A stretch of DNA of 64,000 nt from Polynucleobacter antarcticus (GTDB taxonomy: Bacteria > Pseudomonadota > Gammaproteobacteria > Burkholderiales > Burkholderiaceae). Below the pieces are notes generated by a model. The model saw only the letters and a program-made list of their open reading frames with translations. It was not told the DNA's origin and did not search any database. The stretch lies in the NCBI RefSeq assembly GCF_013307245.1, contig NZ_CP028941.1:744001-808000 (forward strand). Reading direction: 5' to 3'. Positions 803 to 17,869 of the stretch are shown one piece after another. The translations under genes and the position numbers were made by a program. Every line of letters begins with the position of its first letter. Within the stretch, counting starts at the first letter, position 1.

Positions 803-1102
803 ATGCAAATTAACTACAAACGACCTTTCACCCACTTTGTTAAGAAAGCAATTAAGCCTCTTAAACTCGCCATTAAAGATAATGTAACGAGGATAAGCAA
901 TAATCCTAATTTAGGCGAACCTAAATTAGGAGACCTAAAAGGAATTTTTATTCATAAGTTTCGTTTTGATGGGCAGGAATATTTAATGGCATATCGATGC
1001 AGAGTAAACAGCAAGATTGAGATAATTTGGATTGACTTTTATAAAGTAGGTAGTCACGAGAACTTTTATGATGACTTAAAACAATATTTACGCCAAGAAT
1101 AG
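803..1102 (+). CDS. RelE/ParE-like toxin
   Basis: This 99-residue basic protein has the layout of RelE/ParE-superfamily toxins: an N-terminal helical hairpin rich in Lys, a central beta-sheet (FIHKFRFDGQEYLMAYR) and a C-terminal segment ending GSHENFYDDLKQYL, a common ending in this superfamily. Such toxins are either ribosome-dependent mRNA endonucleases or gyrase inhibitors; the sequence alone does not decide which. A DNA-binding protein gene follows after 16 bases, giving a toxin-first TA operon. Two palindromes immediately upstream support autoregulation. Confidence 0.7.
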   Translation: MQINYKRPFTHFVKKAIKPLKLAIKDNVTRISNNPNLGEPKLGDLKGIFIHKFRFDGQEYLMAYRCRVNSKIEIIWIDFYKVGSHENFYDDLKQYLRQE

Positions 1103-1118
1103 CGCGTGGGAGAAAAAA

Positions 1119-1430
1119 ATGGGTTTGACAATAACAGCAAAAGATATGTTTAATCAGGTGAAGAAAATGCCCTCAAAGGAGCGCATTAAATTCTTCGCAT
1201 TAATTGCTACAAATGCATTTAGAGAAAATGACTTTACGGATGAACAGGTTTTTGGCAATTTGAAGAATGACACTTTTACTGCGGAAGAGTCAGCTCAATA
1301 TCTTGAAATCTCTATGCCAACTTTTCGTCGCCATGTACAGTCAGGAAAATTGATACCAAAAACAGTTGTAGGTAGAAGTCAGTTTTTTGCAACTGGTGAC
1401 CTTCAGCGCTTCAAGCAAGAGCTAGACTAA
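1119..1430 (+). CDS. Excisionase/MerR-type HTH protein, probable antitoxin
   Basis: This 103-residue protein has a C-terminal winged-helix excisionase-type domain at about residues 50-100: FTAEESAQYLEISMPTF, then GKLIPKTVVGRSQFF. That arrangement (recognition helix, then a wing with an R/K patch) is known from small DNA-binding proteins including TA antitoxins. The N-terminal half has no recognised domain. GGGAG lies 7 bases before the ATG. Its position directly behind a RelE/ParE-like gene suggests that it is the antitoxin and operon repressor. Confidence 0.65.
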   Translation: MGLTITAKDMFNQVKKMPSKERIKFFALIATNAFRENDFTDEQVFGNLKNDTFTAEESAQYLEISMPTFRRHVQSGKLIPKTVVGRSQFFATGDLQRFKQELD

Positions 1431-1472
1431 GTTTAAAATTGATTATTGACGATATCCGTCTAAAATAGATTT

Positions 1473-2000
1473 ATGCACGTTAATGAGAAAAACCGGACGC
1501 CCAAGAAAGAAGATTTGGACGCGGGCCCAAGCAAATCAGAGCTAAAGCGCCAGATGACGGAGCGTCAGAAACTAGCCGAGGTTCTGGCTTCGCTCAGTAG
1601 TGATGGTCTCAAGTCCATCCCTATGGATGAAGCTATCAAAGTAGCCATTGCAGAAACACCTAAAATCAAGAGTTTTGAGGCCATCCGCCGCCATAAGCAA
1701 TATCTTGGCAAGCTCATGCGCTTTTTAGATGACGAAGAATTAGCGACTATTCAAAAACGTCTAGATGCCATTCAAGGAGTCAGTAAAGCAGAGACAGCCA
1801 AACTTCATTTTTTAGAATCCTACCGTGATCGTTTAGTAGCTGATGATGCCGCCTTTACGAAGATGATTGAGCAATACCCCGATATGGATATTCAGAACAT
1901 GCGGACGATGATTCGTAATGCGCGTAAAGAAAAAGAAATGAATAAGCCACCTAAGGCTTATCGTGAGATCTTTCGTGTTTTGAAAGATATGGGTATTTAG
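1473..2000 (+). CDS. darP: DarP/YjgA family ribosome-associated protein (DUF615)
   Basis: The 175-residue product matches the DUF615/YjgA family, now called DarP, in size and pattern: SKSELKRQM near residues 20-28, a helical core with IRRHKQYLGKLMR at about 72-84, and the C-terminal YREIFRVLK. Proteins of this family bind the late 50S ribosomal subunit and help its maturation. The protein is highly charged and cytoplasmic. This is a core gene embedded among accessory genes, so it likely marks the original chromosome backbone. Confidence 0.9.
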   Translation: MHVNEKNRTPKKEDLDAGPSKSELKRQMTERQKLAEVLASLSSDGLKSIPMDEAIKVAIAETPKIKSFEAIRRHKQYLGKLMRFLDDEELATIQKRLDAIQGVSKAETAKLHFLESYRDRLVADDAAFTKMIEQYPDMDIQNMRTMIRNARKEKEMNKPPKAYREIFRVLKDMGI

Positions 2001-2016
2001 CTAGGTGAGACTAGGC

Positions 2017-2205
2017 TTATTTTTTTAAACGAGATCTGCCACTCGCGGTTTTATTCATATCCACTAAGCTCTTAAATAATTCAAGAGGCAAAATATCTTT
2101 AGCGGGCTTAAAGAGCTTCAGGTCTTGGGCAGATAGATGTCTCACCTCGCCGTCATGGTTAATGATTGGTCTAGGTATTTTGATATTGTTTAACTTATTT
2201 TGCAT
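2017..2205 (-). CDS. Small antitoxin-like protein, possibly truncated
   Basis: This 62-residue protein carries the segment EVRHLSAQDLKLFKPAKDILP (residues 20-40). It resembles the N-terminal part of BrnA/CopG-type antitoxins, where EVR-L-T/A-D-FRPA-EVLP precedes a ribbon-helix-helix domain. Here the protein stops soon after that motif and has no ribbon-helix-helix, so it is either a shortened antitoxin or a remnant. No BrnT-like toxin is adjacent. The 56-residue gene at 2230-2400 lies just upstream on the same strand and may be its partner. Confidence 0.4.
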   Translation of the reverse strand: MQNKLNNIKIPRPIINHDGEVRHLSAQDLKLFKPAKDILPLELFKSLVDMNKTASGRSRLKK

Positions 2206-2229
2206 TTGCTTTTCAAAATGAAACTACTC

Positions 2230-2400
2230 TCATTTTTTGAGAGCAAACTTGGCTGCATCCAGAATTAATTCTTGTTCATCAGCAATTATTTGAGCTGCAA
2301 TATCTTGCTCTGAAGTGGTATCCACTCGCACTAGATCAATGTTGCCTTTTTTCAAAGAGCTCGGTTTTTCAGAATCAATATTTATTAGTACTATTGTCAT
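2230..2400 (-). CDS. Hypothetical 56-residue protein
   Basis: A short reading frame starts MTIVLINIDSE and ends AAKFALKK. It is acidic in the middle (SEQDIAAQIIADEQE) and looks helical. It lies 24 bases upstream of the 2017-2205 gene on the same strand, so the two may form one operon. I do not recognise a family. Upstream (2403-2529) another reverse frame is open without a start codon and ends ELSDLLDEAI, so the whole stretch could be what is left of a larger gene set. Confidence 0.35.
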   Translation of the reverse strand: MTIVLINIDSEKPSSLKKGNIDLVRVDTTSEQDIAAQIIADEQELILDAAKFALKK

Positions 2401-2529
2401 AATTTTTAGGGTTGGTTCAAAGTCTGGTCTTTTGCGTAAAAGATTCAGATTGCTTCATCAAGAAGATCGCTGAGTTCTATCTCATACTTTACACCTTCGT
2501 AAAACCAGACTGAGGAGTAGGTTTTAGTA

Positions 2530-3606
2530 TTAGATCTTTAAGCGCATCGCTGGTAACTCTATCCAACGATACAAATAGTTAGCTGCAACAGTACTGCAAA
2601 TCAATACACCGATCATGAGCGCTATGGCGATACTGCCGCTTTCATAAGCATGCCATCCCAAAGCAATATAGATCGTATTGGCTAGTAAGATAAAAGCAAA
2701 GTGAATTAAGAAAGCACAGTAAGAACGTTGACTACCCCATTGCATCCCTTTTAGTAGTTTTGCTCGTAATGACTGTTTAGCGCTATTTATTACTGGGTAA
2801 GGTGTATTACCCCATATGAGTAATATCAGCGCTACAAACCAAGCTAAGTAATTGCGTAACCAGACTTCCTGAAAGGAAGAGAGTGCAATCAGAACACCAA
2901 TGGCCATGAGGGCAAATTTCGCTAAGCGTGCAACTCTGAGGTCAGGGTAATTTTTGGCAAGATAAGCCAATACACCCAAGCTATAAGACCCAATGAAGTA
3001 AATAAAATAGGCTTCGTAAGCACTAGAGCGATTAAAAAATAGGAGTGAGGCAACAGCCACTATCGCCAATATCCAAATTACGACCTGATAAGCAGAAAAA
3101 GAAATCAGCAGAATGGCAAGAACAGAATAGAGTTGCCAATCTATAGCGACATACCAAGCTCCCGCAGAAATCGACTCTAAACCCAAGATACCTTGAATAA
3201 AGAACAGATGCGCTACAAACTGACCGAGTGTTTCAGTCTCACCCACAAACTCATCAGCAACCCAAAACCGAGCAAGCCAAGCGCAGGCCATTGTCAGTAT
3301 GAGTGCAGCAATAAAGGGAGCAACTAATCTGAGATAGCGATTGATCACTACCCGCAATAGAGTCTTACTACTAAAAGCAATGGTGGCAAAACGGCTAAGG
3401 GATTGCGCTGCGAGATAGCCCGCTAGCACTAAAAATATTTGGACTGCGTAGCGCCCGTACTCAAACAAAAAGGACATGGTATTGGGTAGGACTAACATTG
3501 CATCTTGGGCTATCTGCCCATAATTCGACAGATGATGGGCAATGATCAGAACGGCAGCAAAGACCTTTAAAAAGTCAATTAATAAAAGTGAGGATGATGG
3601 CTTCAA
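2530..3606 (-). CDS. Acyltransferase 3 family membrane protein
   Basis: The 358-residue protein has about ten hydrophobic segments and the features of acyltransferase 3 (OafA/YrhL) enzymes: the N-terminal FLKVFAAVLIIAHHLSNYG with the conserved His around residues 24-25, an RYLRLVAPF loop, and AWYVAIDWQLYS in mid-protein. These inner-membrane enzymes transfer acetyl or other acyl groups to sugars of surface polysaccharides or exported glycans. No glycan gene cluster is adjacent, so the acceptor is unknown. The length is typical of the membrane domain alone, without an SGNH domain. Confidence 0.85.
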   Translation of the reverse strand: MKPSSSLLLIDFLKVFAAVLIIAHHLSNYGQIAQDAMLVLPNTMSFLFEYGRYAVQIFLVLAGYLAAQSLSRFATIAFSSKTLLRVVINRYLRLVAPFIAALILTMACAWLARFWVADEFVGETETLGQFVAHLFFIQGILGLESISAGAWYVAIDWQLYSVLAILLISFSAYQVVIWILAIVAVASLLFFNRSSAYEAYFIYFIGSYSLGVLAYLAKNYPDLRVARLAKFALMAIGVLIALSSFQEVWLRNYLAWFVALILLIWGNTPYPVINSAKQSLRAKLLKGMQWGSQRSYCAFLIHFAFILLANTIYIALGWHAYESGSIAIALMIGVLICSTVAANYLYRWIELPAMRLKI

Positions 3607-3643
3607 TTATTTTTAGCTTTTAATAAAACCATCTGGGTGCAGC

Positions 3644-3829
3644 TTACTTTGGCTTCGTAGTAGTTTTTGTCTTACCTATTAAAGAGGCGAGTAAGGGATT
3701 GGTGCTTGCCAACTCTTTCTTGGTCTTAGCTACCTCTTCTGCTGTTCCAGGCTTAGGTACTTTGGCAGCATTTTTCATCCGCTGAGCGGTTGCTAAGCCT
3801 AGGTTCTTATAGAGGTCTGTTTTTTTCAT
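3644..3829 (-). CDS. Small basic hypothetical protein
   Basis: This 61-residue protein begins MKKTDLYKNLGLATAQRMK and ends in a Lys/Thr-rich tail (GKTKTTTKPK). It is very basic and has no membrane segment or signal peptide. No family is recognised. The base composition and codon use look like coding sequence, and the frame sits alone between the acyltransferase and a repeat-bearing intergenic region. No strong ribosome binding site is seen. Confidence 0.45.
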   Translation of the reverse strand: MKKTDLYKNLGLATAQRMKNAAKVPKPGTAEEVAKTKKELASTNPLLASLIGKTKTTTKPK

Positions 3830-4194
3830 CTGTATAGCGTTTCAATTAGTTAGCATATGAGCGTTTTTATTATTTTAATGGAAACCTATCGCCTCAGGCC
3901 TTTACTTCTAATTCAATGCTGGTATCCCTACATCATATCCAGCCCATAAATCACATATGCCTCCTGAGGTGCATTCAGAGAAGAAATGAGATGAGGGGCA
4001 ATAGAAAGCAATAAGAAGGCATAAGCAACAATAAGAACGGGCAAGCATCAATAATGGCCAAGAAGAACGAATAAGAACCGACAAGCATCAACAAAAACCA
4101 TGATGAGTTGATAGGATGACTTTTAAAACAGGTATTCTTAGTTTTTGATGTAATCAATAGGCTAGCGAATAAGCCAAAAGAGAATGGGGTTTAA
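3830..4194. other. Intergenic stretch with short imperfect repeats
   Basis: No convincing gene is seen in these 365 bases. A hydrophobic reverse frame at 3975-4157 is open but is produced largely by the low-complexity repeats described at 4011-4091. It has no recognisable domain or ribosome binding site. Confidence 0.5.
4011..4091. repeat. Imperfect direct repeats, 22-bp core
   Basis: Two 22-base copies beginning AATAAGAAC and ending CAAGCATCAA lie at 4030-4051 and 4070-4091, with two differences and a 40-base period. A weaker third copy begins at 4011. The strand composition is purine/A-rich. The function is unknown; it may be slippage-derived. Confidence 0.6.
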
Positions 4195-4419
4195 ATGGAT
4201 AACACTATGACAATTATTTTTGGGATTGTGGCGATACTTCTTCCCCTCCTCATTGGCCGTTATGTCTGGAAAAACTTTGATCGGTACTTTGGCAAAAATG
4301 ATCAAGCCTATATGGATACCTTGGAATACTTTCTGAAGAAAATCGGTATCACTATCCTGGTGGCTTTTATTGTTCTCTGGATTGGTATGACACTGGTTTT
4401 TAATGGCAGTGCTGGCTGA
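4195..4419 (+). CDS. Small two-helix membrane protein
   Basis: This 74-residue protein has two hydrophobic helices, residues about 5-24 and 50-70, separated by a charged loop (WKNFDRYFGKNDQAY). No signal peptide cleavage site or known domain is seen. The gene lies 8 bases before another membrane-protein gene (4428-4808) on the same strand, so they are probably co-transcribed and may act together. The function is unknown. Confidence 0.6.
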   Translation: MDNTMTIIFGIVAILLPLLIGRYVWKNFDRYFGKNDQAYMDTLEYFLKKIGITILVAFIVLWIGMTLVFNGSAG

Positions 4420-4427
4420 CTAGTTAC

Positions 4428-4808
4428 ATGAATCATCCACTCACCACTATCTTTAGCAAGGCAAAGCTCAATATTGCCGTGCTCGTCGCTATTTTGCTGT
4501 TTGCTGTTTTGGGAAAAATAATCTTTCCTGAATTTACAAATCGTGTTTTTGAAACTGCAGATCAACTCATCTCTGAGCTCATCTTACTGTTCGTGGCCAT
4601 AACACTGGGGGCATTTATTCCCCAATTTAAGTGGGTGGTGCTGGGCGTCATTGCTACCTATATTGCCGCTGCAGTGGCAATTCAGATAGGTGTGTTTAGC
4701 GCGCTCCGCTTTTTCACTACGGATTATCTTCTAGCTGTTTTGATAGTGGTGCTAGGTTTTGCTGCTATTGCAAACCTGTATCGGCGTTATCGAGAGCTCG
4801 GGCTTTAA
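4428..4808 (+). CDS. Hypothetical inner-membrane protein
   Basis: This 126-residue protein has four likely transmembrane segments at about residues 14-32, 46-64, 67-88 and 98-117, and a positively charged C-terminus (NLYRRYRELGL). The charge pattern suggests an inner-membrane protein with a cytoplasmic tail. No family is recognised. It follows the 74-residue membrane protein at 4195 and precedes an antitoxin gene at 4842, which is a separate module. Confidence 0.6.
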   Translation: MNHPLTTIFSKAKLNIAVLVAILLFAVLGKIIFPEFTNRVFETADQLISELILLFVAITLGAFIPQFKWVVLGVIATYIAAAVAIQIGVFSALRFFTTDYLLAVLIVVLGFAAIANLYRRYRELGL

Positions 4809-4841
4809 AGTATTAAAAATACTGAGGAAAGAAAAAATAGT

Positions 4842-5072
4842 ATGGGAACCATTGATCTGAGTAAATTCTCATCTCAAGCAAACCCAGAGATTTTGAGTGC
4901 CCTACGCCAAATTGCCAAAATAGAAGGTCGTAAATTTCATTCAGTATTAGATGAAGCATTTCGCGATTTTCTAAATAAAAAAGGTGCCTCCACCCCGAAT
5001 CGTCAAGCACTGGCCGGTTTTGCGCAAAGTCTCAATGAGTTCGAGGATCTATACAAAGAACTTGCTAAGTAA
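4842..5072 (+). CDS. Ribbon-helix-helix-type antitoxin of a Doc-like module
   Basis: The 76-residue protein starts with a short strand and two helices (LSALRQIAKIEGRKFHSVLDEAFRDFL, residues 18-44), the arrangement of ribbon-helix-helix antitoxins. The C-terminal LNEFEDLYKELAK would be the toxin-binding tail. Its TAA stop overlaps the ATG of a Doc-type toxin remnant at 5072 (TAATG), which fixes its identity as the antitoxin of a phd-doc-like operon. The toxin is destroyed, so this gene may be kept by chance, as a regulator, or as an anti-addiction protein. Confidence 0.7.
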   Translation: MGTIDLSKFSSQANPEILSALRQIAKIEGRKFHSVLDEAFRDFLNKKGASTPNRQALAGFAQSLNEFEDLYKELAK

Positions 5073-5352
5073 TGCCCTTTATTGACACACAAGACATCAT
5101 GTTTATGCAGAGTGTTCTGATGAAGCAATTTGGGGGATCTGCTGGCTTAAGAGATCAATCCGGCCTTAATGCAGCGCTCATCCGTCCTCATACTACCCGG
5201 ATCTGATCTCTGAAGCAGCTGCGTTGTTTGAAAGCCTTATCGTTAACCACCCCTTTATTGATGCGTGATTGCGAACCATCTGTCGTTAATATCAAGAGGA
5301 ATACTTTGCCTCGTATTTGTTGATAGGGCATCGCGTGACTATTTCTAAATGA
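5072..5352 (+). pseudogene. Doc/Fic-type toxin, degraded
   Basis: Frame 1 from the ATG at 5072 reads MPFIDTQDIMFMQSVLMKQ and then GLRDQSGLNAALIRPH before a TGA at 5204. This is the start of a Doc (death on curing) toxin. A shift of frame near 5190 resumes as YPDLISEAAALFESLIVNHPFIDA and then hits TGA. The Fic/Doc catalytic loop HPFxDGNKRT is eroded here to HPFIDA-stop-LRT, so the AMP-transfer/phosphotransfer site is lost. The gene overlaps its antitoxin by one base. Confidence 0.85.
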
Positions 5353-5505
5353 ACACAGCTTTTAACTTGCTAATTTTTAGCACTTTCATGCCAATAGTTA
5401 GCAATGTCTCTAGTCAAAGCCCTATTTACCAATTAAGGTTTGTTTATCTGACTTGGTTGAATAGATAAGCCAGTCTAGCGATATAGCTGCTCCAGAATTA
5501 ATTTT

Positions 5506-5831
5506 CTATGAAATCAATGTAGCCAATTTGGCCAATACTTCATCCATTAGGTCGGCCGATACAGTCTCCAGTTTTTTGCTTTTCTTGCCACTAAGTCTAG
5601 CACCCTGAGTTGATCGCATCGCGCCACACCCACTGTTTTAGTGCCTAACTAGTCAACTGTATATCCAGCTACTCTTGCAAAGTTTGCACCTGTTGTGATC
5701 GGCAATACCATTGGCATCTTTGTTAAGTTATTAAAAGGTCCTGGCGAAACTACGAGCACAGGACGCATTCACTTTTGCTGATGCCCAGAAGTGGGATCCA
5801 GAGAAACTAAATAAATATCACCTCGATTCAT
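5506..5831 (-). pseudogene. MazF/PemK-type toxin, degraded
   Basis: The reverse strand from an ATG at 5831 reads MNRGDIYLVSLDPTSGHQQK, then an in-frame TGA (codon 21). It continues MRPVLVVSPGPFNNLTKMP and VLPITTGANFARVAGY, then TAG at codon 61 (5649-5651), then GVARCDQLRVLDL, and after a one-base shift near an A-rich run it ends LMDEVLAKLATLIS. This is a full-length MazF/ChpB-type mRNA endonuclease gene with two nonsense codons and one frameshift. The first stop sits where the family usually has a Gly, consistent with GGA to TGA. It overlaps the end of the antitoxin gene. Confidence 0.9.
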
Positions 5832-6139
5832 TACAAGATCTCATTGCCAACGGGTGCAAAATCAAACCACTGCTTATCTCCTTTAGGCATTTTGGCTTAT
5901 ACATCACATTTTGCCAATAAATCAGCTAGTTTATATTTAGGTTTGGTGATGGGCTTTACTACTAAGCGCCCCTCTAATAGTGCAACATCGACCATTGAAC
6001 CCGAACTTATTTTCAGCTCCTCTAAAAATGCAGGCGAAACCGCCATCATCACTGAACTGCCTACTTTTTTCAAATTTGTCTGTATTTTCTTCTTCCGTAA
6101 GTTATGTAAAAGTAATACACATAATCTTCTCAGAATCAA
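5831..6139 (-). pseudogene. MazE/ChpI-type antitoxin with premature stop and lost start
   Basis: The reverse frame contains LKKVGSSVMMAVSPAFLEEL and GRLVVKPITKPKYKLADLL, the swapped-hairpin AbrB-type domain and tail of MazE/ChpI antitoxins. An in-frame TAA at 5897-5899 cuts it after KCDV. The same frame then continues with KMPKGDKQWFDFAPVGNEIL, the normal family ending, to TAA at 5831-5833. The family usually starts just before TNLKKVG; here that codon is ATA (6083-6085) behind a good GGAAGAAG site, so the original ATG may be mutated. The only ATG in frame is further up at 6139. Confidence 0.85.
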
Positions 6140-6142
6140 ATT

Positions 6143-6160
6143 GTTATATAAATATATAAC
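6143..6160. promoter_or_regulatory. Palindrome upstream of the decayed mazEF-like pair
   Basis: GTTATATA-AA-TATATAAC forms 8-bp inverted arms upstream of the antitoxin remnant. MazE-type proteins repress their own promoter by binding AT-rich dyads, so this is likely the fossil operator and -10 region of the module. Confidence 0.4.
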
Positions 6161-6250
6161 TCTAAAGAAAAGTTAAATATAGGTGAGGGTGGGATTTATT
6201 AATTGGCGCCAAGAAGGCTAATTTTTTGTAGTGGGCCTCCCTTTGGGGGC

Positions 6251-6979
6251 TTATTCATTGCCTCCACCCATTGAATCTACCCCTGCTACTCCCATTAAGT
6301 GCTCTATGTTTTGCCAAAGTATCGCTTTAGGTGTATCAATTCTCATGGTAGTCATACATCGTTCTAGAAGGCCCTCTGTTGTTAATACTCGGTCTATGGA
6401 TTTGCTCAGGCTATTCAGAACACTATCGCCATAAGCTGGCCTTGCTTTTGCAAGTGCTGCTTGAAATTCTTTTTGACTCACCTTCATCATAGCCAGATCA
6501 AGTACATCCCGACTAAAGACACTGTCATCATTCCATCGGTCAGCATTGGCTAAGAGCTTGCTGGCCGTTAAGTCTACTCGTGTCAAAGTGGCGATATTGT
6601 CTATACAGTCCAGCTTTCCAGGAGTATCGAATTCAATACGCCCTTCTGAAATGATTTCAAATTTAATGTGGGCATCACCCACCTTAATGGCTGTCCGAAT
6701 GCCGTATTGATCTGTACGAATTTCACGCGCTAAAACCAACTCTCTACCACTCTTGGTTATTGCAGCAATACCCTGCGGTCCCCTTAGTAATTCACGGAGG
6801 TCTCGATAATGCTCGAGATCTGAAACTAAGAAATCAATATCTACAGACTCTCGATATTCATCATGCATTAGTGCGACCGCCGTACCGCCACCAAAATAGC
6901 AAGCATGATCTCTTAATAACTGATCATCTAGTCTTTGCAGAACTTCTGAAATGCGTTGATGATGTTTTCGTCTAAACAA
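6251..6979 (-). CDS. AbiEii/AbiGii-family nucleotidyltransferase toxin
   Basis: The 242-residue protein has the polymerase-beta-like nucleotidyltransferase signature: G30-G-G-T33, then ESVD47-ID49-F, where the two Asp would bind metal. It continues with the helical region of the AbiEii/AbiGii family (VDLTASKLLANADRWNDDSVFSRDVLDLAMM). AbiEii proteins are type IV TA or abortive-infection toxins that transfer nucleotides to RNA targets. The start is TTG at 6979, overlapping the XRE gene by 8 bases, so translation is coupled. The partner here is an XRE protein rather than the usual winged-helix AbiEi. Confidence 0.8.
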   Translation of the reverse strand: MFRRKHHQRISEVLQRLDDQLLRDHACYFGGGTAVALMHDEYRESVDIDFLVSDLEHYRDLRELLRGPQGIAAITKSGRELVLAREIRTDQYGIRTAIKVGDAHIKFEIISEGRIEFDTPGKLDCIDNIATLTRVDLTASKLLANADRWNDDSVFSRDVLDLAMMKVSQKEFQAALAKARPAYGDSVLNSLSKSIDRVLTTEGLLERCMTTMRIDTPKAILWQNIEHLMGVAGVDSMGGGNE

Positions 6980-7442
6980 AAAAATTCTCCATTCCTTTTG
7001 ACAAGATGAGTCTTTGCATTAACAACCTTTCATGATCATCTAGTTGATTGAGGTCCATGAATCGCTGATTACGCTCATAAATACCTATTACCTCTTCATC
7101 CGTGAGCAGAGCATTAGGATCCAATTGCCAAGCTAAAGCGGTCAATTGTGGATAATCCGCAATCCGCACATGGGAGCCATTCGATAGGGTTTCATGTTGG
7201 GGTTGCTGAGGTGTTAGCCCACCATTTACAGCAAGAATGCCTAAATGGAGTCCTAGTGCATGACACACCTTGACATAAGCCCCTAAGCTAACGGATGCCT
7301 CCCCCTTCTCAATTCGATGCAAGGTCACCCTAGAAATCCCTGCCGCCCTGGCAGCAGATTGAGCGCGCACCCCCAAAGCTTTTCTTTGGGCGGCAATTTT
7401 GGCACCCAGATCAGCTTGCTGGTCACGTACTAAGTCAGTCAT
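6972..7442 (-). CDS. XRE-family regulator, antitoxin partner of the AbiEii-type toxin
   Basis: An HTH domain spans about residues 15-60 (IAAQRKALGVRAQSAARAAG, then SRVTLHRIEKGEASVSLG), typical of XRE/Cro proteins. The C-terminal domain includes ALAWQLDPNALLTDEEVIGIYERN and a helical end that is probably for toxin contact. I place the start at the ATG at 7442 (MTDLVRDQ). An ATG further up would lie inside the large dyad at 7443-7494, which is almost certainly the operator. It overlaps the downstream nucleotidyltransferase by 8 bases. Confidence 0.75.
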   Translation of the reverse strand: MTDLVRDQQADLGAKIAAQRKALGVRAQSAARAAGISRVTLHRIEKGEASVSLGAYVKVCHALGLHLGILAVNGGLTPQQPQHETLSNGSHVRIADYPQLTALAWQLDPNALLTDEEVIGIYERNQRFMDLNQLDDHERLLMQRLILSKGMENFFV

Positions 7443-7494
7443 AATGTTTCTTATTATATACAAAATTGCTTATTTGTACATAGTAAGAAACATT
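7443..7494. promoter_or_regulatory. Nested inverted repeat, operator of the XRE/AbiEii operon
   Basis: Outer arms AATGTTTCTTA (7443-7453) and TAAGAAACATT (7484-7494) are perfect 11-bp inverted repeats. Inside them TATACAAA (7457-7464) and TTTGTACA (7473-7480) form a second dyad with one mismatch. The whole 52 bp abuts the start codon at 7442. Two nested sites at fixed spacing suggest cooperative binding by two dimers of the XRE protein. Confidence 0.6.
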
Positions 7495-7571
7495 ATTTAG
7501 TTTTTACCCAATAAGCTCTTTAGGTGCCATCCAAGCATCACTATTTATTACCACCCATCATCATCACCTCA

Positions 7572-7889
7572 TCACCACCAACTGTAATTAGCATCATGCT
7601 TGTGAGATGCCTCAAATAATGGATCGACTTCTGGCTTACAAAGCCAATTTTTCATCGCTCGATTATTGCGGGTGCGTCGCCGATGATCAAATGACTTGCG
7701 GTACCAGCGTGGTGCCGCACCACCCATGGTGACCTCTTTATCAGAATGAAAAAGAGCAATGGCTTTTTTAGCTAAACGTGATTTGGGCTCATGACGAGAA
7801 TATTGCCCACCCAGAGCAAAGTATTGCCAATTTTTTAAAACCCAATCATATTCATGAAACTGATTTTTTCTACGTTTTGTACGTGACAT
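7572..7889 (-). CDS. Very basic hypothetical protein
   Basis: This 105-residue protein starts MSRTKRRKNQFHEYDWVL and ends HKHDANYSWW. It is rich in Arg, Lys, His and Trp, for example APRWYRKSFDHRRRTRNNR in mid-protein. AGGAG lies 6 bases before the ATG, so translation is likely. The composition suggests nucleic-acid binding, and it is loosely like small basic proteins of phages, but I do not recognise the family. A minimal ORF with its own ribosome binding site precedes it at 7910-7918. Confidence 0.6.
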   Translation of the reverse strand: MSRTKRRKNQFHEYDWVLKNWQYFALGGQYSRHEPKSRLAKKAIALFHSDKEVTMGGAAPRWYRKSFDHRRRTRNNRAMKNWLCKPEVDPLFEASHKHDANYSWW

Positions 7890-8615: not shown

Positions 8616-8616
8616 A

Positions 8617-8698: not shown

Positions 8699-9001
8699 CT
8701 AAGCAGCCATTTGAAATACGCGTACTCGTGACTTAATGTGCTGTTCTAATGTTCGCTGTGCAACACGCATATCGTATTCCGACTGCAAATTGAGCCAAAA
8801 GCGTGGGTCCATTGAAAAAAATAAGCCTAATCGTAAGGCGGTATCTGCGCTTATGGGTCGCTTGCCATGCACAATCTCACTAATTCGGCTTGGGGATACA
8901 TCAATATCCGCGGCCAACTGTCGGGCGGTAATGCCCAGCGGACGCATAAAGTCCTCTAGGAGTATTTCTCCGGGGTGAATTTCTTCGAGTAGTGTTGTCA
9001 T
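8699..9001 (-). CDS. higA: HigA-family antitoxin (XRE)
   Basis: The 100-residue protein begins with the HigA/VapI-type lead-in LEEIHPGEILLEDFMRPLGI, followed by an XRE helix-turn-helix at about residues 25-62 (ARQLAADIDVSPSRISEIVHGKR) and the family's FFSMDPRFWLNLQSEYD segment. HigA binds the toxin HigB and represses the operon. The toxin gene lies 10 bases upstream on the same strand, the reversed order normal for higBA. The module looks intact. Confidence 0.9.
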   Translation of the reverse strand: MTTLLEEIHPGEILLEDFMRPLGITARQLAADIDVSPSRISEIVHGKRPISADTALRLGLFFSMDPRFWLNLQSEYDMRVAQRTLEQHIKSRVRVFQMAA

Positions 9002-9011: not shown

Positions 9012-9290
9012 TTAGTGGTAATCCACTATTTCGACCCCGTGAACGCCATCCTCTTTCCACAAAAAACAGATGCGCCACTGTGCATTAATCCGAATACTAT
9101 ATTGGCCATCTCGATCTCCACGCAAGGATTCCAGCCTATTTCCGGGCGGTATCCGTAAGTCCTCCAAGCGGGTCACTGCATGTAGTTGCAATAAGCGACG
9201 CCTTGCCACTCGCTCCACATTTTTGAAGCGATAGGACGCTTCGCTGTAAAACAATGCTTCGGTTTCTTGGCATCCAAAAGAACGAATCAT
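9012..9290 (-). CDS. higB: HigB-family toxin (RelE superfamily)
   Basis: The 92-residue protein has the HigB layout: MIRSFGCQETEALFY at the N-terminus, an Arg-rich central helix, GNRLESLRGDRDGQYSIRINAQWRICF, and a C-terminal HGVEIVDYH. The family cleaves translated mRNA on the ribosome; the Arg residues and the final Tyr-His are the kind of residues used for this. It is followed by higA. A 17-bp dyad lies 10 bases upstream of the start. Confidence 0.9.
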   Translation of the reverse strand: MIRSFGCQETEALFYSEASYRFKNVERVARRRLLQLHAVTRLEDLRIPPGNRLESLRGDRDGQYSIRINAQWRICFLWKEDGVHGVEIVDYH

Positions 9291-9865: not shown

Positions 9866-10906
9866 ATGACCAGCACCTTCTTCTCCTTTACCCATTTGCT
9901 TGGCCAATCCTGGTTTATAGGCCTGATGGCAATTGTGTTGATTGGTGCTGTCTTAGCAGCGGTGCATTACGCCGAAGTGATTGCACATAAAACGGGTGAG
10001 CCCTATGGAACACTGGTACTAGCTATTAGCGTCACCATTATTGAAGTGGCTCTGATTGTTTCGATGATGCTCTCAGGTCAAGCCGGCTCTGAATTCATAG
10101 CGCGTGATGCCATCTTTGCTACCGTCATGATTGTGATCAATGGGGTAATTGGTTTATGTATTTTTATGGGTGGTCTCAAGCATTACGAGATGAGCTTTCG
10201 TAATGAAGGCACCAATTCCGCATTAGCAGTACTAACTGCCTTGGCAACTTTTATTCTGGTTCTCCCTTTAGTAACCGTCAGTAGCCCAGGGCCAGACTTT
10301 ACTGAAAGCCAGTTGGCTTTTGCAGGCATTGCTTCCTTTGCTCTTTATGGGGCATTTATCTTTTTTCAGACAGTCAGTCATCGTGACTACTACCTACCAT
10401 CGGTAGAAGAGCAAAAACTCGATAGCTCTATCCATGCAGAAAAACCAAGCAATCTCAAGACCGCTGTGAGCTGCGTTCTGCTCTTGATCTCACTCATTGC
10501 CGTGGTAGGTCTGGCAAAGGCCTTGAGTCCCGCGATTGAAGCAGGGGTCAATGCCGTTGGTGCTCCTAAAACAATTGTGGGTATTGCCATTGCTTTCTTA
10601 GTACTTTTGCCAGAAGGCTATGCCGCTGTCAGGGCTGCTAGAGCCAATCGATTACAAAGTAGTTTAAACTTAGCCCTAGGTTCTGGATTAGCCAGCATTG
10701 GCTTATCCATTCCGGTGGTGGCAGCCATTGCGATTTACTTTGATCTCCCCTTGAGTTTAGGCATCAGTCAACTCAATATGGTCCTGATGTACGTGTCTCT
10801 CTTTATTGGGGCGCTGACCCTAGCCATTGGTAGGACCACCCTACTGCAAGGCATCGTTCACTTGATTATTTTCTTTGCGTATTTGTTCTTGAGTTTGGTG
10901 CCTTAG
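9866..10906 (+). CDS. ChaA-type Ca2+/H+ (Na+/H+) antiporter
   Basis: The 346-residue protein has about ten membrane helices and the CaCA-superfamily motif EPYGTLVLAISVTIIEVAL (residues about 44-62). The second half has a related motif around LLPEGYAAVRAARANRLQSS, with the acidic residues used for cation exchange. This matches the ChaA family, which exports Ca2+ or Na+ in exchange for protons at the inner membrane. The length is close to that of known ChaA proteins. It stands alone on the + strand. Confidence 0.85.
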   Translation: MTSTFFSFTHLLGQSWFIGLMAIVLIGAVLAAVHYAEVIAHKTGEPYGTLVLAISVTIIEVALIVSMMLSGQAGSEFIARDAIFATVMIVINGVIGLCIFMGGLKHYEMSFRNEGTNSALAVLTALATFILVLPLVTVSSPGPDFTESQLAFAGIASFALYGAFIFFQTVSHRDYYLPSVEEQKLDSSIHAEKPSNLKTAVSCVLLLISLIAVVGLAKALSPAIEAGVNAVGAPKTIVGIAIAFLVLLPEGYAAVRAARANRLQSSLNLALGSGLASIGLSIPVVAAIAIYFDLPLSLGISQLNMVLMYVSLFIGALTLAIGRTTLLQGIVHLIIFFAYLFLSLVP

Positions 10907-11109: not shown

Positions 11110-11253
11110 TACCTTTCTCCTGCCGCTTAATCGGAAATAATTTACCGAGATCAGCTTAGGCTCAAAGTCCATCAACACCTATCAGGAAAGGACTTTCAGC
11201 CCTTAGAAAGCAGTTACTTTAGTTGTCAGTCCTTACTTCAACGAGTATCGGGG

Positions 11254-12358: not shown

Positions 12359-12480
12359 GAAAACCCATCAATATAGAAATAATGATATTTTACCCAAGTA
12401 AAGGGCTTGCTCAGCTCGAATCTACTTACTCAGGATGCTCATGCTATAAGAGCTTCTCATCAGCTAAGTTCAGTTATCTT

Positions 12481-13365: not shown

Positions 13366-13659
13366 GATGGGGCTATTTAATGAGGGCTGTGTACATTACT
13401 TAATGTATTTCAAAATGATTATTATTAATATAATTAGTAGGTAGTATGCATTAGATAATGGGAAATAGGTAACTGACTTTATTGCTATGTATTTTTATTG
13501 CTATGTATTGATAGCCATATTATCAATTTCAAAGTATTCAACAGTATATTTGGCCAATTAATACTACAATCAAGCCGATTTTTTATGATCTTCTACTATT
13601 TTGAAGCATCTCAGTAGGCCACTCTTCCAATTAGCCACTTTTAGAATTTATAATGAATC
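13366..13659. other. AT-rich divergent promoter region
   Basis: The 294 bases between the DUF3108 gene and the intact wecA-like gene are AT-rich and carry no gene that I can support. They must hold promoters for both divergent genes. A direct repeat, TTATTGCTATGTATT followed by ATTGCTATGTATTG, is seen at about 13479-13510. Confidence 0.5.
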
Positions 13660-14742
13660 ATGATTGGTCTTTTAGCCGCCTTCTTCTCGTCATTCATCTT
13701 GACCTTGCTCATTATTCGCTTTGAGCATGTACATTCCCGTTTTTCTGGTGATACTGATTTGTCGGGACCTCAAAAGTTTCATACCAAATCCGTACCTAGA
13801 ATAGGCGGTCTTGCAATCGCATTGGGCGTCTTTTGCGCCATCACCATCAAGCTCAGCACCAATCCTGAAGTAAGGCTTGAACTACTGCTATTGATTTGTG
13901 CTATTCCTGTCTTTTTTATTGGGCTATCTGAAGATCTCACCAAAAAGATATCCGTCAAGGTACGCCTTATCTTTACAGCAATCAGTGCACTACTACTTAC
14001 TCAGCTGCTTGGCGCATCTATCAATCATCTCGATATTCCAGGCATTGATTATTTACTCTCGATTCGATGGATTGCAGTCGTCTTTACTATTTTTGCAATC
14101 ACTGGCCTTGCCAATGCGTACAACATCATTGATGGGTTTAATGGCTTATCCAGTATGGTAGGTATCATTACTTTGATGGCCATAGGGTATGTGGCATTTA
14201 TTGTGGGTGATCCCGCCATCATGTATCTGAGTTTTATTATGGCTAGCGCTATCTTAGGGTTCTTTATTTGGAACTACCCGCGAGGCTTGATTTTCTTGGG
14301 TGATGGTGGTGCCTATTTAATTGGCTTTTGGATTGCTGCTCTAAGCGTACTCTTAGTCTCACGTCACCAAAATATTTCACCTTGGTTTGCGCTCTTGGTA
14401 AACGCTTATCCCATCCTAGAAACCTTGTTTACTATCTACCGTAGAAAAATTCATCAAGGTAAAAGCCCAGGGCTACCCGATGGAATACATTTCCATACCT
14501 TAATTTTTAGAAGAATTCTGAATCCTTCCTGTGTTGCCACTGAGCGCGATTGGTTTAATGCGAATGCTAAAACAGCACCCTACCTTTGGATATTGGCAGG
14601 ACTAGGGATTGCGCCAGCAGTGCTATGGTGGCAATCTACCCTCATCTTAATGGGCTTTGCATTGCTGTTTGTGATTTCTTATATATGGCTATATCGGCGT
14701 ATTGTGGTTTTCAAGACCCCAAGATGGATGCACATTGAGTAA
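13660..14742 (+). CDS. WecA/MraY-family undecaprenyl-phosphate sugar-1-phosphate transferase
   Basis: The 360-residue protein has about ten membrane helices and the conserved loops of the polyprenyl-phosphate N-acetylhexosamine-1-phosphate transferase family: KFHTKSVPRIGGLA (39-52), ANAYNIIDGFNGLSSM (151-166) with the metal/nucleotide Asp, and WNYPRGLIFLGDGGAYL (204-220). It starts synthesis of lipid-linked glycans such as O-antigen or enterobacterial-common-antigen-like polymer. It is intact, unlike its paralogue at 11254-12358. No glycosyltransferase cluster is next to it, and a small membrane-protein gene faces its 3' end. Confidence 0.88.
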   Translation: MIGLLAAFFSSFILTLLIIRFEHVHSRFSGDTDLSGPQKFHTKSVPRIGGLAIALGVFCAITIKLSTNPEVRLELLLLICAIPVFFIGLSEDLTKKISVKVRLIFTAISALLLTQLLGASINHLDIPGIDYLLSIRWIAVVFTIFAITGLANAYNIIDGFNGLSSMVGIITLMAIGYVAFIVGDPAIMYLSFIMASAILGFFIWNYPRGLIFLGDGGAYLIGFWIAALSVLLVSRHQNISPWFALLVNAYPILETLFTIYRRKIHQGKSPGLPDGIHFHTLIFRRILNPSCVATERDWFNANAKTAPYLWILAGLGIAPAVLWWQSTLILMGFALLFVISYIWLYRRIVVFKTPRWMHIE

Positions 14743-14791
14743 GTATGAATTGAATCATTATTGAATTCGCCTTGTTATTAAATACACCTTG

Positions 14792-14923
14792 TTATTTAAT
14801 AATTTTCAACATACTTAAGATCTGCCAAAGCAGCATCAATACAATCAGACAAGCCACCACAATCAGGCTGAGTTCAACCCTAAATAGCCGCACACGCTTA
14901 TGAACATATTCAATCGATAGCAT
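14792..14923 (-). CDS. 43-residue single-helix membrane protein
   Basis: The reverse frame starts MLSIEYVHKRVRLFRVELS, then a hydrophobic helix from about residue 18 to 37, and ends in KIIK. AAAGGA lies 6 bases before the ATG. The basic N-terminus before the helix suggests an inner-membrane protein with its N-terminus inside. A homologue without ATG lies at 11008-11109. Both sit next to a wecA-like gene, so they may be small partners or regulators of that transferase; this is inference. The gene converges on the intact wecA-like gene. Confidence 0.6.
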   Translation of the reverse strand: MLSIEYVHKRVRLFRVELSLIVVACLIVLMLLWQILSMLKIIK

Positions 14924-15152
14924 CTTATTTCCTTTGGGTGAGTGAAAAAGATAGGCTAAATAAATAGATATTAAAGATCGATAGTCTAGGTTGGATTAGT
15001 TTGTATGAAATTTCTGAATAAGCTGACAGCACGTGGATAGCATATCAATAGGTTCTATATTTCAGAGCAATCTGACTGCTGTAAATGTATTTAGCTAGTG
15101 TTGCTATCTTACGCACTGAGATAGGATGGTTTAAAACACTCATAAGCTAACT

Positions 15153-16058
15153 ATGAATCTCCATGATATTTTGTAAGACACGATTGTCCGTATAAAAGGT
15201 GTATATGCTCCCTTCACCATCAGAGCATACTCAAGTGACTTTGCTGCTTTTATTAATTTTTGTGAAGCGCGACATCAAGTAGCCATTCCGGCCCGCTCTC
15301 AATCGATAGCTGAGTTTTTTTTGACTTTAAGTAGTAGTGGGCGATCTTCCGCAAGTATTCGGCGGGCAATAGTCGGAATCTCCGCAATGCATCTGCTTAA
15401 TCGCTTTTCTGATCCAACCAAAGAGCCAGAGGCTCTGCTGGAGATGAAGCGCATGCATCGCATCCTTGGGAGAGAATCCAAGCAAGCCTTTGGTATTAGC
15501 CAAGACATTCTTTCTCAATTACTGGCAAGTCTAGATCATTCACTTAGAGACCTATGTGATGCTGCTTTGCTCCAATTAGCCTACGATAGCCTAGGTCGTC
15601 GTAGTGAATTAGTCTCACTACAGATCACTGATTTACAGCAACTTACACAGGGTGGCAAAACTCGACATACTATCTTGCTTCGTAAAAGTAAGGTAGATCA
15701 AGATGCAAAAGGTCGTTGGATCACCTTACGACCAGGCACAGTCGATGCCGTGAAGCGCTGGACCACTGCCGCAAAAATAGATAAGGGGCTTATATTGCGG
15801 GGAGTTGATCGTAAGGGCGATATTAGTGATTTTTTATGCTGCGGGCAGATCAATCGGATCTTTAAGCGTATTGCCAGCCAGGCCAAGATTGATCCTGTAC
15901 TTATTAAAAGAATTAGTGGTCATTCACTTCGAATTGGGGCCGCTCAGGATTTACTGGTTTCTGGGGCAAGCATGCCAATGATTATGAGCAGGGGTCGCTG
16001 GACAAAGACTGACACCGTGATGCGTTATCTTGAGCAGTATGGTGGAAGAGATCTCTAA
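15153..16058 (+). pseudogene. Tyrosine recombinase with an early nonsense codon
   Basis: From the ATG at 15153 the frame reads MNLHDIL, TAA (15174-15176), then DTIVRIKGVYAPFTIRAY and on to the stop at 16058. The integrase fragment at 19791 has LLEETIIKIDGAYAPSTIRAY at the same place, so the stop replaces a Glu (GAA to TAA). Counting from a TTG at 15321, the catalytic residues R94, K (RKSK, 121-124), H201-xx-R204, W227 in the His/Trp place and Y236 are all present. Without readthrough, only an N-terminally shortened protein lacking the core-binding domain could be made. Confidence 0.8.
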
Positions 16059-16128
16059 AAAAATAGAGATTTGAATTCTGATCCCCCTACTCTCAAAATA
16101 GAAGTTTTTATTGCCATCGCAAGCAGTC

Positions 16129-16159
16129 AAACTAAAAGCCCTTTAGGGGCTTTTAGTTT
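16129..16159. terminator. Bidirectional hairpin terminator
   Basis: AAACTAAAAGCCC (16129-16141) and GGGCTTTTAGTTT (16147-16159) form a perfect 13-bp stem with a 5-base loop. It lies between the recombinase and the convergent antitoxin gene at 16158, so it can serve both. Confidence 0.75.
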
Positions 16160-16526
16160 ATGCAGCCTTGGCTACCTTTTCTTTCTTGGGATGATTTGAT
16201 TGATCCCTTAACTTTGATCTCGCTAAACTTTGCTTTTCCAAAGCCTCGAGGGCCACCATCTTCAGTTCACCATCGGCAAACCGCTTCAACGCCTCTCGCA
16301 TTAGAGGCTGATAGCCCAATTGATACTTTCCACCCAAAAGCTTGAACATATCAATTAACTCCTTATCCAAGCGAATGGAGATCATTTGCAAACCAAGCGC
16401 ATCATCTATGTCAGATACTAATTTACTTGGTGCCACGTTCACATGCTCTAGACTTTGCCCAAGTTCGCCACTCTCCCATGCTTCAGGAGAGTTTGTAATT
16501 TCCTTTGCAAGCTGTTTGGAGTTCAT
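16158..16526 (-). CDS. CopG/RHH-type antitoxin-like protein
   Basis: In this 122-residue protein the segment LGLQMISIRLDKELIDMFKLLGGKYQLGYQPLMREALKRF (residues 45-84) has the strand-helix-helix form of antitoxins paired with small toxins (MISIRLD strand, YQPLMREAL second helix). The N-terminal half is acidic and may contact the toxin; the C-terminal tail is Lys-rich. It lies 40 bases downstream of a broken toxin gene (16567-16854) on the same strand, so it would be the surviving antitoxin of that pair. Confidence 0.6.
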   Translation of the reverse strand: MNSKQLAKEITNSPEAWESGELGQSLEHVNVAPSKLVSDIDDALGLQMISIRLDKELIDMFKLLGGKYQLGYQPLMREALKRFADGELKMVALEALEKQSLARSKLRDQSNHPKKEKVAKAA

Positions 16527-16566
16527 TTGCTTCCTCTTTTATAAGATTAAACTTACTATGTAGTGA

Positions 16567-16854
16567 TTATTTAGAGTTTTTGTATATACTTAATTCTACT
16601 TCATTAGGCGGATAGATTGTTTTCAGGAAAACCTGTCCTTCCTTAAAAACACGAACCACTTTGAGCCCAACAGACTGATGATTTTCTGATATAAACCAAT
16701 AGGTTCGAGGGTTTGTTTTGTTGTTCAGCCTTTTATCTTCAATGTATCTTGGGTTATTGTGGTTAAAAAAACAGTCCTCAACATCCACCCTCCTGAGATG
16801 GTGCTTTTCCTAAATATGATCCAAAACAACCTGACTTGTTATTAAATTTTTCAT
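16567..16854 (-). pseudogene. Small TA toxin-like gene with a TAG at codon 15
   Basis: From the ATG at 16854 the frame reads MKNLITSQVVLDHI, TAG (16810-16812), then EKHHLRRVDVEDCFFNHNN, TNPRTYWFISEN, LKVVRVF and IKTxYPPNE-like LKTIYPPNEVELSIY to the stop at 16567. The pattern KH-hydrophobic-VE-CF, TNPxTxWFI, LKVV and KTxYxPNE is that of a widespread family of small toxin-like proteins encoded before CopG-type antitoxins. Translation from an internal GTG at 16788 would lack the N-terminal helix. An intact promoter sits upstream, so the lesion may be recent. Confidence 0.65.
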
Positions 16855-16870
16855 TTGCAGCCCAATGAAA

Positions 16871-16911
16871 TTGTATATACAAATTGTATCGTATATTTTC
16901 AAATGGGTCAA
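16871..16911 (-). promoter_or_regulatory. Sigma-70 promoter with overlapping operator palindrome
   Basis: On the reverse strand TTGACC (16906-16911) and TACAAT (16883-16888) are spaced by 17 bases, a near-ideal promoter. Directly downstream, TTGTATATACAA (16871-16882) is a perfect 12-bp palindrome at the expected start site. It points to repression by the antitoxin at 16158. Confidence 0.65.
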
Positions 16912-16985
16912 TACATTGAGTGGGGGTTTTATGCTTTCACTCTGATATTTATTTGCAGGTTTGGTAACACCGCGTAACGGGCTTA

Positions 16986-17219
16986 TTACTTATCAATTGA
17001 GTTCATAAGCTCATCCATCTTTTCTTGAAGTTTTCTTTCAGATCTCTCCATTGACTCAAGCATAGCCAATACTCCAAGATTTGGATTGGTAGCAACGCCA
17101 TTTGCAACATTAGCAAATGCCTCTGTCACTTCTGATCTGAGCTCACGAGCCGCCTTGTGATAGGCAGTCCATTGATCTAGGAGCTCATAAAACAGGTCCT
17201 GAGCTTTTTCAGTTTTCAT
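16986..17219 (-). CDS. Third gene of the vapBC operon, helical protein of unknown function
   Basis: This 77-residue protein is predicted to be all helical, with a coiled-coil-like C-terminus (LESMERSERKLQEKMDELMNSI). It starts 9 bases after the vapC stop on the same strand, so it is probably co-transcribed with vapBC. It has no membrane helix and no recognised domain. A third gene behind vapC is not part of the standard two-gene module. The protein could be an accessory or stabilising factor, or an unrelated passenger. Confidence 0.6.
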   Translation of the reverse strand: MKTEKAQDLFYELLDQWTAYHKAARELRSEVTEAFANVANGVATNPNLGVLAMLESMERSERKLQEKMDELMNSIDK

Positions 17220-17228
17220 AATTAATTA

Positions 17229-17630
17229 CTAAAGCACCCAATTTTCTAGCGCTAAATTTGGAACTCTTTTAAATTCTCGTAAATTGTTGCTTACCAATAT
17301 CAAGCCCTGGCCAATAGCATGGGCTGCAATATGAATATCATTCTCTCCTATGATTTCCCCTTTTTTTCCTAACGCAGCTTTAATTTGCCCATAGTGCTGC
17401 GATGCCTTGGCGTCATAAGATAGAACCTCAAGATGGCTGATGAAGTCTTCAATCGCTTCTAAATTTTTATCTACGTTAAGGCTTTTTTCTGCACCGTAAA
17501 TTAACTCTGACAAGGTAATACTAGAAATTGCCATACGACTAGCATTGGCATTAAAAACTTCCAGCACTTCCTTAGGCCTACGTTTGAGTACGTAGATAAC
17601 AATATTGGTGTCTAGTAAATATTTGAGCAT
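17229..17630 (-). CDS. vapC: VapC PIN-domain ribonuclease toxin
   Basis: The 133-residue protein has the PIN-domain pattern: YLLDTN with D7, TLSELIYGAEKS with E42, ENDIHIAAHAI with D98, and SNNLREF with N115-N116 near the fourth acidic position. VapC toxins are Mg2+-dependent endoribonucleases that cut tRNA or rRNA. The start overlaps the end of vapB (ATG/TAA region at 17630), so the pair is translationally coupled. The length and motifs are those of an intact toxin. Confidence 0.93.
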   Translation of the reverse strand: MLKYLLDTNIVIYVLKRRPKEVLEVFNANASRMAISSITLSELIYGAEKSLNVDKNLEAIEDFISHLEVLSYDAKASQHYGQIKAALGKKGEIIGENDIHIAAHAIGQGLILVSNNLREFKRVPNLALENWVL

Positions 17631-17869
17631 TACAGCTCTTCTCTCTCAGCTGGCTTTTGTACTCCGCGCTCATTCAAAAAGTCATCAGATACTGTCGGGC
17701 CATTTAAGAAAAAGTTATCCCACGTATTTTCAATCGGCGTAATGATGCGTTCGCGACCTCGAATGCGAACGATCACCTTTTTCACTTCGTCGGGTAAACG
17801 CGCTTCAGCGGGCATTCTGACTGCCTGGCTTCGATTGTTAGTAAACACGGTTGTAATCGCTATAGTCAT
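17630..17869 (-). CDS. vapB: VapB antitoxin (AbrB/MazE fold)
   Basis: The 79-residue protein starts MTIAITTVFTNNRSQAVRMP, the VapB N-terminal swapped-hairpin DNA-binding domain (NRSQAVR is the hallmark). The C-terminal half DNFFLNGPTVSDDFLNER is the toxin-wrapping tail. I choose the ATG at 17869 because GGGAG lies 8 bases before it; a GTG one codon upstream is also possible. It is followed by vapC and a third gene. Confidence 0.92.
   Translation of the reverse strand: MTIAITTVFTNNRSQAVRMPAEARLPDEVKKVIVRIRGRERIITPIENTWDNFFLNGPTVSDDFLNERGVQKPAEREEL

Follow-up and report, generated by a model that had tools for sequence, protein, structure and literature searches.

Clusters of mobile or exchangeable small modules are known from several bacterial settings, and we compared with these a locus rich in toxin–antitoxin (TA) modules in the chromosome of Polynucleobacter antarcticus. 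The locus lies in a stretch of 64,000 bases (the window; bases 744,001–808,000 of a single-contig genome of 2,154,412 bases, stated completeness 99.95), in which seven TA pairs occupy positions 803–17872. Chromosomal integrons carry TA cassettes and can hold many TA modules in one array. The assembly of many modules in one array is a feature common to both, whereas here genes lie in both orientations, no recurrent cassette-type repeats separate the modules, and recurrent cassette recombination sites between genes were not found.

A nearer relative is formed by the replacement islands of Polynucleobacter asymbioticus, which belong to the same group of bacteria and likewise show variable content between conserved flanks (PMC5644125). 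That paper ascribes their exchange to homologous recombination, including exchange between species, and reports recombination hotspots at the island flanks and mutS and mutL missing in the group. The island described there is a cell-surface island; at our locus a WecA-type gene (PF00953) follows the transporter gene caxA. The main text of that paper does not contain the word 'toxin', whereas the locus analysed here consists mainly of small TA modules and was compared across species. In Pseudomonas aeruginosa, core genes bracket many alternative systems at cDHS1 and cDHS2 in a similar way (PMC10250203). Those sites hold mostly anti-phage systems with median lengths of 26 and 6 kb, in contrast to TA modules in an interval of 0.25–10.6 kb here, and our comparison spans the species of a genus. 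Orphan antitoxins have also been surveyed, and the survey reads many of them as degraded pairs in which antitoxins outlast toxins (PMC7354431). Antitoxins outlast toxins here as well, with the difference that both states can be compared at one syntenic site. Among the literature matches listed, none concerned this site, judged by title or the start of the abstract. The locus is a TA-rich relative of known hotspots bracketed by core genes, and its unusual part is the exchange of single modules between species at one site. We consider it likely that it represents one copy of a genus-wide TA exchange site whose resident modules are lost and re-exchanged by homologous recombination.

A TA hotspot bracketed by core genes

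The core anchor of the locus is darP (1473..2000, forward strand; PF04751), for which 143 of the 151 Polynucleobacter genomes gave a match. We analysed the surroundings of darP in 80 named loci, together with 60 stretches of about 20 kb that lie around or downstream of it; after removal of loci with identical darP DNA, 116 remained, including the window. Loci (L) and genomes (G, with G000 for the genome of the window) are given by number where they have to be told apart. In most loci the same order recurs, namely GMC oxidoreductase, darP, acyltransferase, o3644, m4195, m4428 and caxA. Among the 80 named loci, some of whose contigs end early, darP was present in 80, the acyltransferase in 71, the oxidoreductase in 69, o3644 in 64, m4195 in 60 and m4428 in 58; the 60 further stretches are similar. 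Pfam supports the labels GMC oxidoreductase, acyltransferase, caxA transporter, WecA-type gene, CoA transferase (called CaiB), cysI and alkyl sulfatase, while cobA, cbiX, DUF934, Phd, RHH (ribbon-helix-helix), blac17 and IS30 are presumptive labels.

Two variable intervals result. Slot A extends from the GMC oxidoreductase to darP and contains a ParE-like pair, intact in both genes in 33 of the 116 loci (some contigs end early). Slot B extends from m4428 (4428..4808, forward strand; membrane-like by its letters, clustered in 54 of 60 loci) to caxA (9866..10906, forward strand; a Na/Ca-exchanger-type transporter, PF01699, conserved in relatives), and was readable over its full length in 63 loci. 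Its length ranged from 253 to 10,619 bases and its contents varied, with HigBA, RHH-Doc or Phd-Doc, XRE-AbiEii, RES-Xre and TumE-type modules. For six mapped kinds, with remnants counted as present, we found 17 distinct TA sets including the empty one; at least one kind was present in 35 of the 63 loci and none in 28, and since small pairs occurring once were not scanned by family, TA-bearing loci may exceed 35. The same stretch in P. brandtiae (L001) carries HigBA, MazEF, VapB and HipA with a helix-turn-helix (HTH) gene. Different TA sets were found at the same site next to darP, the very comparison that the preliminary description of this DNA had proposed for its suspected capture hotspot.

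Module order was analysed together with two landmarks, blac17 and the conserved 105-amino-acid gene o7572 (7572..7889, reverse strand; cluster in 11 loci), which has no match in Pfam, PHROGs or PADLOC and is not a known TA gene. With both landmarks among the six kinds compared, 50 of 53 pairwise orders agreed (shuffled mean 37.4; reached in none of 2,000 shuffles), HigBA and blac17 standing 5 to 1 and XRE-AbiEii and Doc pairs occurring in either order (2 and 2). Modules keep a constant side relative to o7572 and blac17.

TA genes are also more frequent here than chance would give, as indicated by a genus-wide enrichment near darP. In 39 single-contig genomes with the locus, 12 of 23 HigB, 4 of 14 AbiEii and 10 of 28 ParE-like places were at most 20 kb away from darP, where 0.46, 0.28 and 0.56 would be expected by length. 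This count used 93 of 95 HigB places (two under the cut-off were dropped) and the 86 strongest AbiEii and 89 strongest ParE-like places; weaker and fragmentary rows were left out, among them fragments that lie close to darP in G091 and G019, and Fic places were excluded because their list is incomplete and mixes Doc with long Fic proteins. In the genome of P. antarcticus itself the site accounts for the sole HigB match, for one of the two AbiEii and one of the two ParE-like matches, and for one of six PIN matches. The existence of a TA hotspot bracketed by core genes is therefore real: relatives differ in their TA sets and all three tested families are concentrated there, which supports a capture or exchange hotspot.

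A second TA cluster was seen elsewhere in the same genome (L148, G000 256000-272000), with one ParE-like and one Gp49-type pair, AbiEii and HipA each accompanied by an HTH gene, and a broken copy close to the VapC of the window. Many of its neighbour genes adjoin slot B in G119.

Inheritance and exchange of modules

Mapped on a backbone tree for 60 loci, each TA module was about as scattered in its presence as shuffled labels, for example with 15 changes versus a shuffled mean of 15.7 for ParE/HTH and 17 versus 15.9 for HigBA. The non-TA gene blac17 was clumped (13 changes versus a mean of 18.5, minimum 15 in 100 shuffles), and cysI leans to clumping (9 changes, mean 11.2, minimum 9). Some module alleles are 94–99% identical between species whose flanks share 80–89%. 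We scored as exchange an identity of at least 94% that exceeds the median of the flanking genes by at least 8 points, in pairs with flank medians of 70–92%. By this measure 27 of 839 module comparisons stood out, versus 13 of 12,200 comparisons of control genes. The clearest case is L097 versus L112, where AbiEii (95%), XRE (95%), RHH (98%), Doc (95%) and a second HigBA (98%) contrast with the neighbours m4428 (79%) and cysI (86%). Recent exchange is concentrated on modules and not on the adjacent cys or transporter genes. Such high module identity over diverged flanks suggests that modules were recently transferred at this very site.

Several observations weigh against this interpretation. 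The genome comparison used one genome per species, and the tree was built from five proteins of the locus itself. The exchange comparisons are not independent of each other, and the 27 perhaps represent six events. Divergence of the modules correlates with that of the backbone (ParE/HTH 0.64, HigBA 0.55, AbiEii 0.56, RHH 0.43; not significant for Doc, 0.17, and XRE, 0.36), as inheritance with loss would give. In matched loci the coefficients were 0.62 for ParE/HTH, 0.46 for HigBA, 0.43 for RHH, 0.92 for AbiEii and 0.79 for the 105-amino-acid gene, with controls at 0.45–0.89; that of HigBA was below all three of its controls. Variable genes other than TA genes are present at the site in L093, L115, L126 and other loci. 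When only TA kinds were ordered, 12 of 14 pairs agreed, which 1,179 of 5,000 shuffles also reached; we rejected as unproven that TA kinds follow a fixed order relative to each other, since chance often gives this value.

Finally, the modules of the window share 77% (HigBA), 83% (RHH), 69% (AbiEii) and 64% (ParE/HTH) identity with their nearest relatives, at a backbone identity of about 79%. Its HigBA, RHH-Doc and XRE-AbiEii occupy the same interval as their orthologues in other species and are as diverged as the backbone or more. The window's own modules are old residents that show no recent exchange, which speaks against the sequential capture that had been suggested for this genome.

TA pairs of the window and loss of toxins first

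In four of the seven pairs both genes are open (ParE-like/HTH, XRE-AbiEii, HigBA and VapBC), and three pairs are broken (RHH-Doc, MazEF and a CopG-type gene with a 95-amino-acid partner). The toxin is broken in all three of the latter; in one of them, MazEF, both genes are affected, and in two the antitoxin is still open. The preliminary description had already named seven kinds of TA module and these lesions; the former were borne out by Pfam, NCBIfam and intact relatives, the latter by the pieces of tblastn alignments. Its term 'graveyard' goes too far, as four of the seven modules are open in both genes.

The ParE-like toxin in slot A (803..1102, forward strand) matches PF15781 (4.4e-22, 78.3 bits). 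Its HTH_17-type antitoxin partner (1119..1430, forward strand) scores slightly below the cut-off of PF12728 and adjoins the toxin in relatives. In slot B, an open antitoxin gene (4842..5072, forward strand), presumably of the RHH type and without a Pfam match over the cut-off, precedes a remnant of a Doc (Fic) toxin (5072..5265, forward strand), which was recognised by tblastn pieces; the intact relative in L139 matches PF02661. The frame of this Doc changes at about 5185–5194, and past about 5265 the C-terminal part is not clearly recognisable. Orthologues of the antitoxin adjoin an intact Doc in 10 copies.

The MazF-like toxin remnant (5509..5831, reverse strand), traced by tblastn with the intact L001 copy, has a frame change and two in-frame stops; the L001 protein itself matches PemK (PF02452), and its best NCBIfam model is ChpB, below the cut-off of that model. 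The MazE-like antitoxin (5834..6139, reverse strand; open frame 5897–6139) carries a single in-frame stop close to its C-terminus. Proteins of the AbiEii type act as nucleotidyltransferases in phage-exclusion systems. The AbiEii toxin of the window (6251..6979, reverse strand; PF08843 1.2e-19, PADLOC AbiEii 2.6e-68) and its XRE antitoxin (6972..7463, reverse strand; HTH_31/HTH_3, and the PADLOC AbiEi model over residues 98–157 only) are both open, as are HigA (8699..9001, reverse strand; HTH_3) and HigB (9012..9290, reverse strand; PF05015, 1.1e-14, the sole PF05015 match of the genome, in which PF05016 has no match). Several relatives carry HigA copies of 77–84% identity directly after m4428. 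HigB toxins are known to cut mRNA on ribosomes, and VapC toxins of the tRNA(fMet) type to cut initiator tRNA.

Beyond slot B, an open CopG/BrnA-like antitoxin gene (16158..16526, reverse strand) scores below the cut-off of PF14384 and aligns without stops to a copy in L117. Its partner (16567..16854, reverse strand), an unnamed putative toxin of 95 amino acids with one in-frame stop near the N-terminus, has, over 95 residues, 73% identity with the intact copy in L117; neither Pfam nor NCBIfam matched it, and its 12 homologues all lack a functional name. The pair is intact in slot B of L117, and the 95-amino-acid partner was also matched at the end of L047. Together the two genes are a candidate for an undescribed TA family. 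The last pair comprises an open VapC (17229..17630, reverse strand; PF01850 1.3e-20, with NF010285 and NF047863 over the cut-off) and an open AbrB-type VapB (17630..17872, reverse strand; PF04014 below the cut-off, 77% identity to the L001 copy). A PIN toxin stands beside an AbrB-type partner in this pair, and the two NCBIfam models predict VapC to be specific for tRNA(fMet).

To follow the decay of such pairs through the 116 loci, we tallied seven module pairings with near-full-length antitoxin queries, taking matches anywhere in the fetched stretches, also beyond slots A and B, and setting copies at contig ends aside; the MazEF, CopG and VapBC pairs of the window are outside this tally. Of 132 copies, 97 were open in both genes. 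In 12 the toxin was broken or gone while the antitoxin was open (one of these, the AbiEii of L128, is doubtful, as its frame is open in the G014 scan), and the reverse was seen once, for the ParE of L004, where a neighbouring ORF (open reading frame) may be the partner. The remaining copies were 19 with antitoxin scrap only, two with toxin scrap only and one broken in both genes. That a free toxin is harmful is established for TA modules, so this is the expected pattern. The data thus support that toxins go first (12 versus 1 across relatives), in agreement with the first assessment of the window.

Recombinase genes, an IS30-type element and a probable inversion

Two tyrosine recombinase genes lie downstream of slot B, and both are broken. 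One has lost its 5′ end (15177..16058, forward strand; PF00589); residues 45–334 of a relative's recombinase align at 15168–16034, with an in-frame stop near 15174. From the other only the N-terminal residues 1–79 are left (19791..20027, forward strand), cut by an IS30-type element (20029..21010, reverse strand) that has HTH_38 and rve domains and four genomic copies of 99–100% identity. Residues 78–334 of this recombinase were found at G000 322205–322972, beside an IS30-type copy (G000 323046–324027) opposite in orientation to that of the window, so that the halves lie 441 kb apart. An alkyl sulfatase gene is cut at the element as well, leaving residues 602–706 of 707 (21064..21363, forward strand; the relative's gene matches PF14863/PF14864).

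Comparison of gene positions gave further indications. Directly right of the element, at about 765 kb, lies the CoA-transferase gene; G018, G012 and G031 have it at 769, 771 and 720 kb. Their darP, in contrast, is found at 334, 339 and 337 kb and on the opposite strand, compared with 745 kb here. The CoA-transferase gene was located at 0.89–1.20 Mb in the single-contig genomes G002, G004, G014, G024 and G038, and 4 kb from darP in G010, which comes from a more distant group. Across the element GC skew changes sign, from −0.055 on the left to +0.057 on the right. A segment of about 441 kb has probably been inverted by recombination between IS30-type copies, splitting one integrase; this inversion is the simplest account and would explain the flip of GC skew at 21 kb of the window. 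The N-terminal part of the sulfatase was not beside the three other element copies fetched, so that the inversion then needs a further deletion.

Other genes at the site

In most relatives slot B also holds cysI, DUF934, cobA and cbiX (clusters in 59–61 of 63 loci). We considered a loss of these sulfite-reduction genes from the window and rejected it, as cysI is present at 1,736,210 of the same genome and thus was relocated. Similarly, G119, G060, G079, G108, G058 and G040 have cysI at a large distance from darP or on a different contig. The cluster cysI-DUF934-cobA-cbiX was seen elsewhere in the P. antarcticus genome (L147, G000 1733600-1737050) and in G119 (L149), where a ParE-like pair adjoins the relocated genes.

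An ORF of 62 amino acids beside darP (2017..2205, reverse strand) had been taken for an orphan antitoxin; it matches no family in Pfam or NCBIfam, and a protein search returned the ORF itself only, which lends this assignment no support. Between o7572 and HigA, positions 8253–8504 hold an apparently broken fragment of a DUF6933 protein (PF22016). The WecA-type gene (11254–12358) is present in two overlapping frames and is probably a frameshifted copy, with an intact paralogue at 13660–14742. An ORF of 77 amino acids (16986–17219) between VapC and the CopG pair has no family match over the cut-off, and Rfam gave no match up to E 0.5 in positions 1–21400.

Explanations for the diversity of the site

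In the exchange site that we favour, the slots bracketed by core genes draw on a common pool of TA modules, and species differ in the subset that they hold. DNA of related species would enter the cell and recombine through the conserved flanks. The absence of MutS may ease such recombination between diverged DNA: MutS_I was found in none of 38 genomes with the locus (including that of P. antarcticus) and in 12 of 23 without its type of darP, in a count that contains some incomplete assemblies and for which genomes were sorted by hand against darP matches. Homologous recombination agrees with the flank hotspots and the missing mutS and mutL that the P. asymbioticus study reports (PMC5644125). 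A newly arrived module would persist because cells that lose it are harmed, up to the point at which its toxin mutates; with the toxin broken, the antitoxin alone would be free to be deleted. The segment turned round between IS30-type copies would probably be a later event. In a more far-reaching version, which we offer as a tentative possibility, the site is a TA rack of the whole genus, with each kind beside the same landmarks and alleles circulating faster than the intervening core genes; TA addiction may then serve as a local drive, drawing recombination here in the absence of MutS.

The same picture could arise from an ancestral TA array, inherited vertically with lineage-specific losses and no exchange between species. 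Such an array would account for the divergence of most modules scaling with the backbone, for their constant side relative to o7572 and blac17, and for deletion scars of ParE/HTH beside darP, where nine loci retain antitoxin scrap only; the near-identical alleles across species with diverged flanks, and a module presence that fits the tree no better than shuffled labels, make it improbable. A permissive spot that any DNA enters and leaves, with TA modules over-represented as they are small and resistant to loss, would accommodate the other variable genes in L093, L115 and L126, among others. This is largely compatible with the exchange site, and as a separate explanation we regard it as unlikely, since recent exchange is focused on modules over the adjacent cys and transporter genes.

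Capture by site-specific integrases, as proposed in the preliminary description, draws on the two tyrosine recombinase genes at 15–20 kb, on related integrases downstream of wecA in several relatives and on the position of the window's CopG and VapBC pairs, outside slot B and near the integrases. Yet both integrase copies here are broken, and none related to them was present in the 63 slot-B intervals (unrelated recombinases were not searched for). No tRNA or tmRNA gene lies in positions 1–31 kb, and no recurrent direct repeat separates the modules, the only direct repeats being four families of two copies each. We therefore think it very unlikely that integrases feed the site. The lesions could also be sequencing errors in an otherwise intact array, as single-base changes may be. 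This is hardly credible for a single-contig genome of the stated completeness, in which MazEF has several lesions and the C-terminal part of Doc is gone, and comparable losses of toxins were found in other assemblies.

Implications for TA turnover

The spread, settling and death of chromosomal TA modules have mostly been inferred from genome lists. At the locus analysed here, a single site, flanked alike in dozens of species, offers intact, half-broken and deleted states of modules together with recent transfers, so that exchange and the loss of toxins first can be counted directly. Through it, TA turnover is also connected with the recombination hotspots reported for freshwater Polynucleobacter (PMC5644125).

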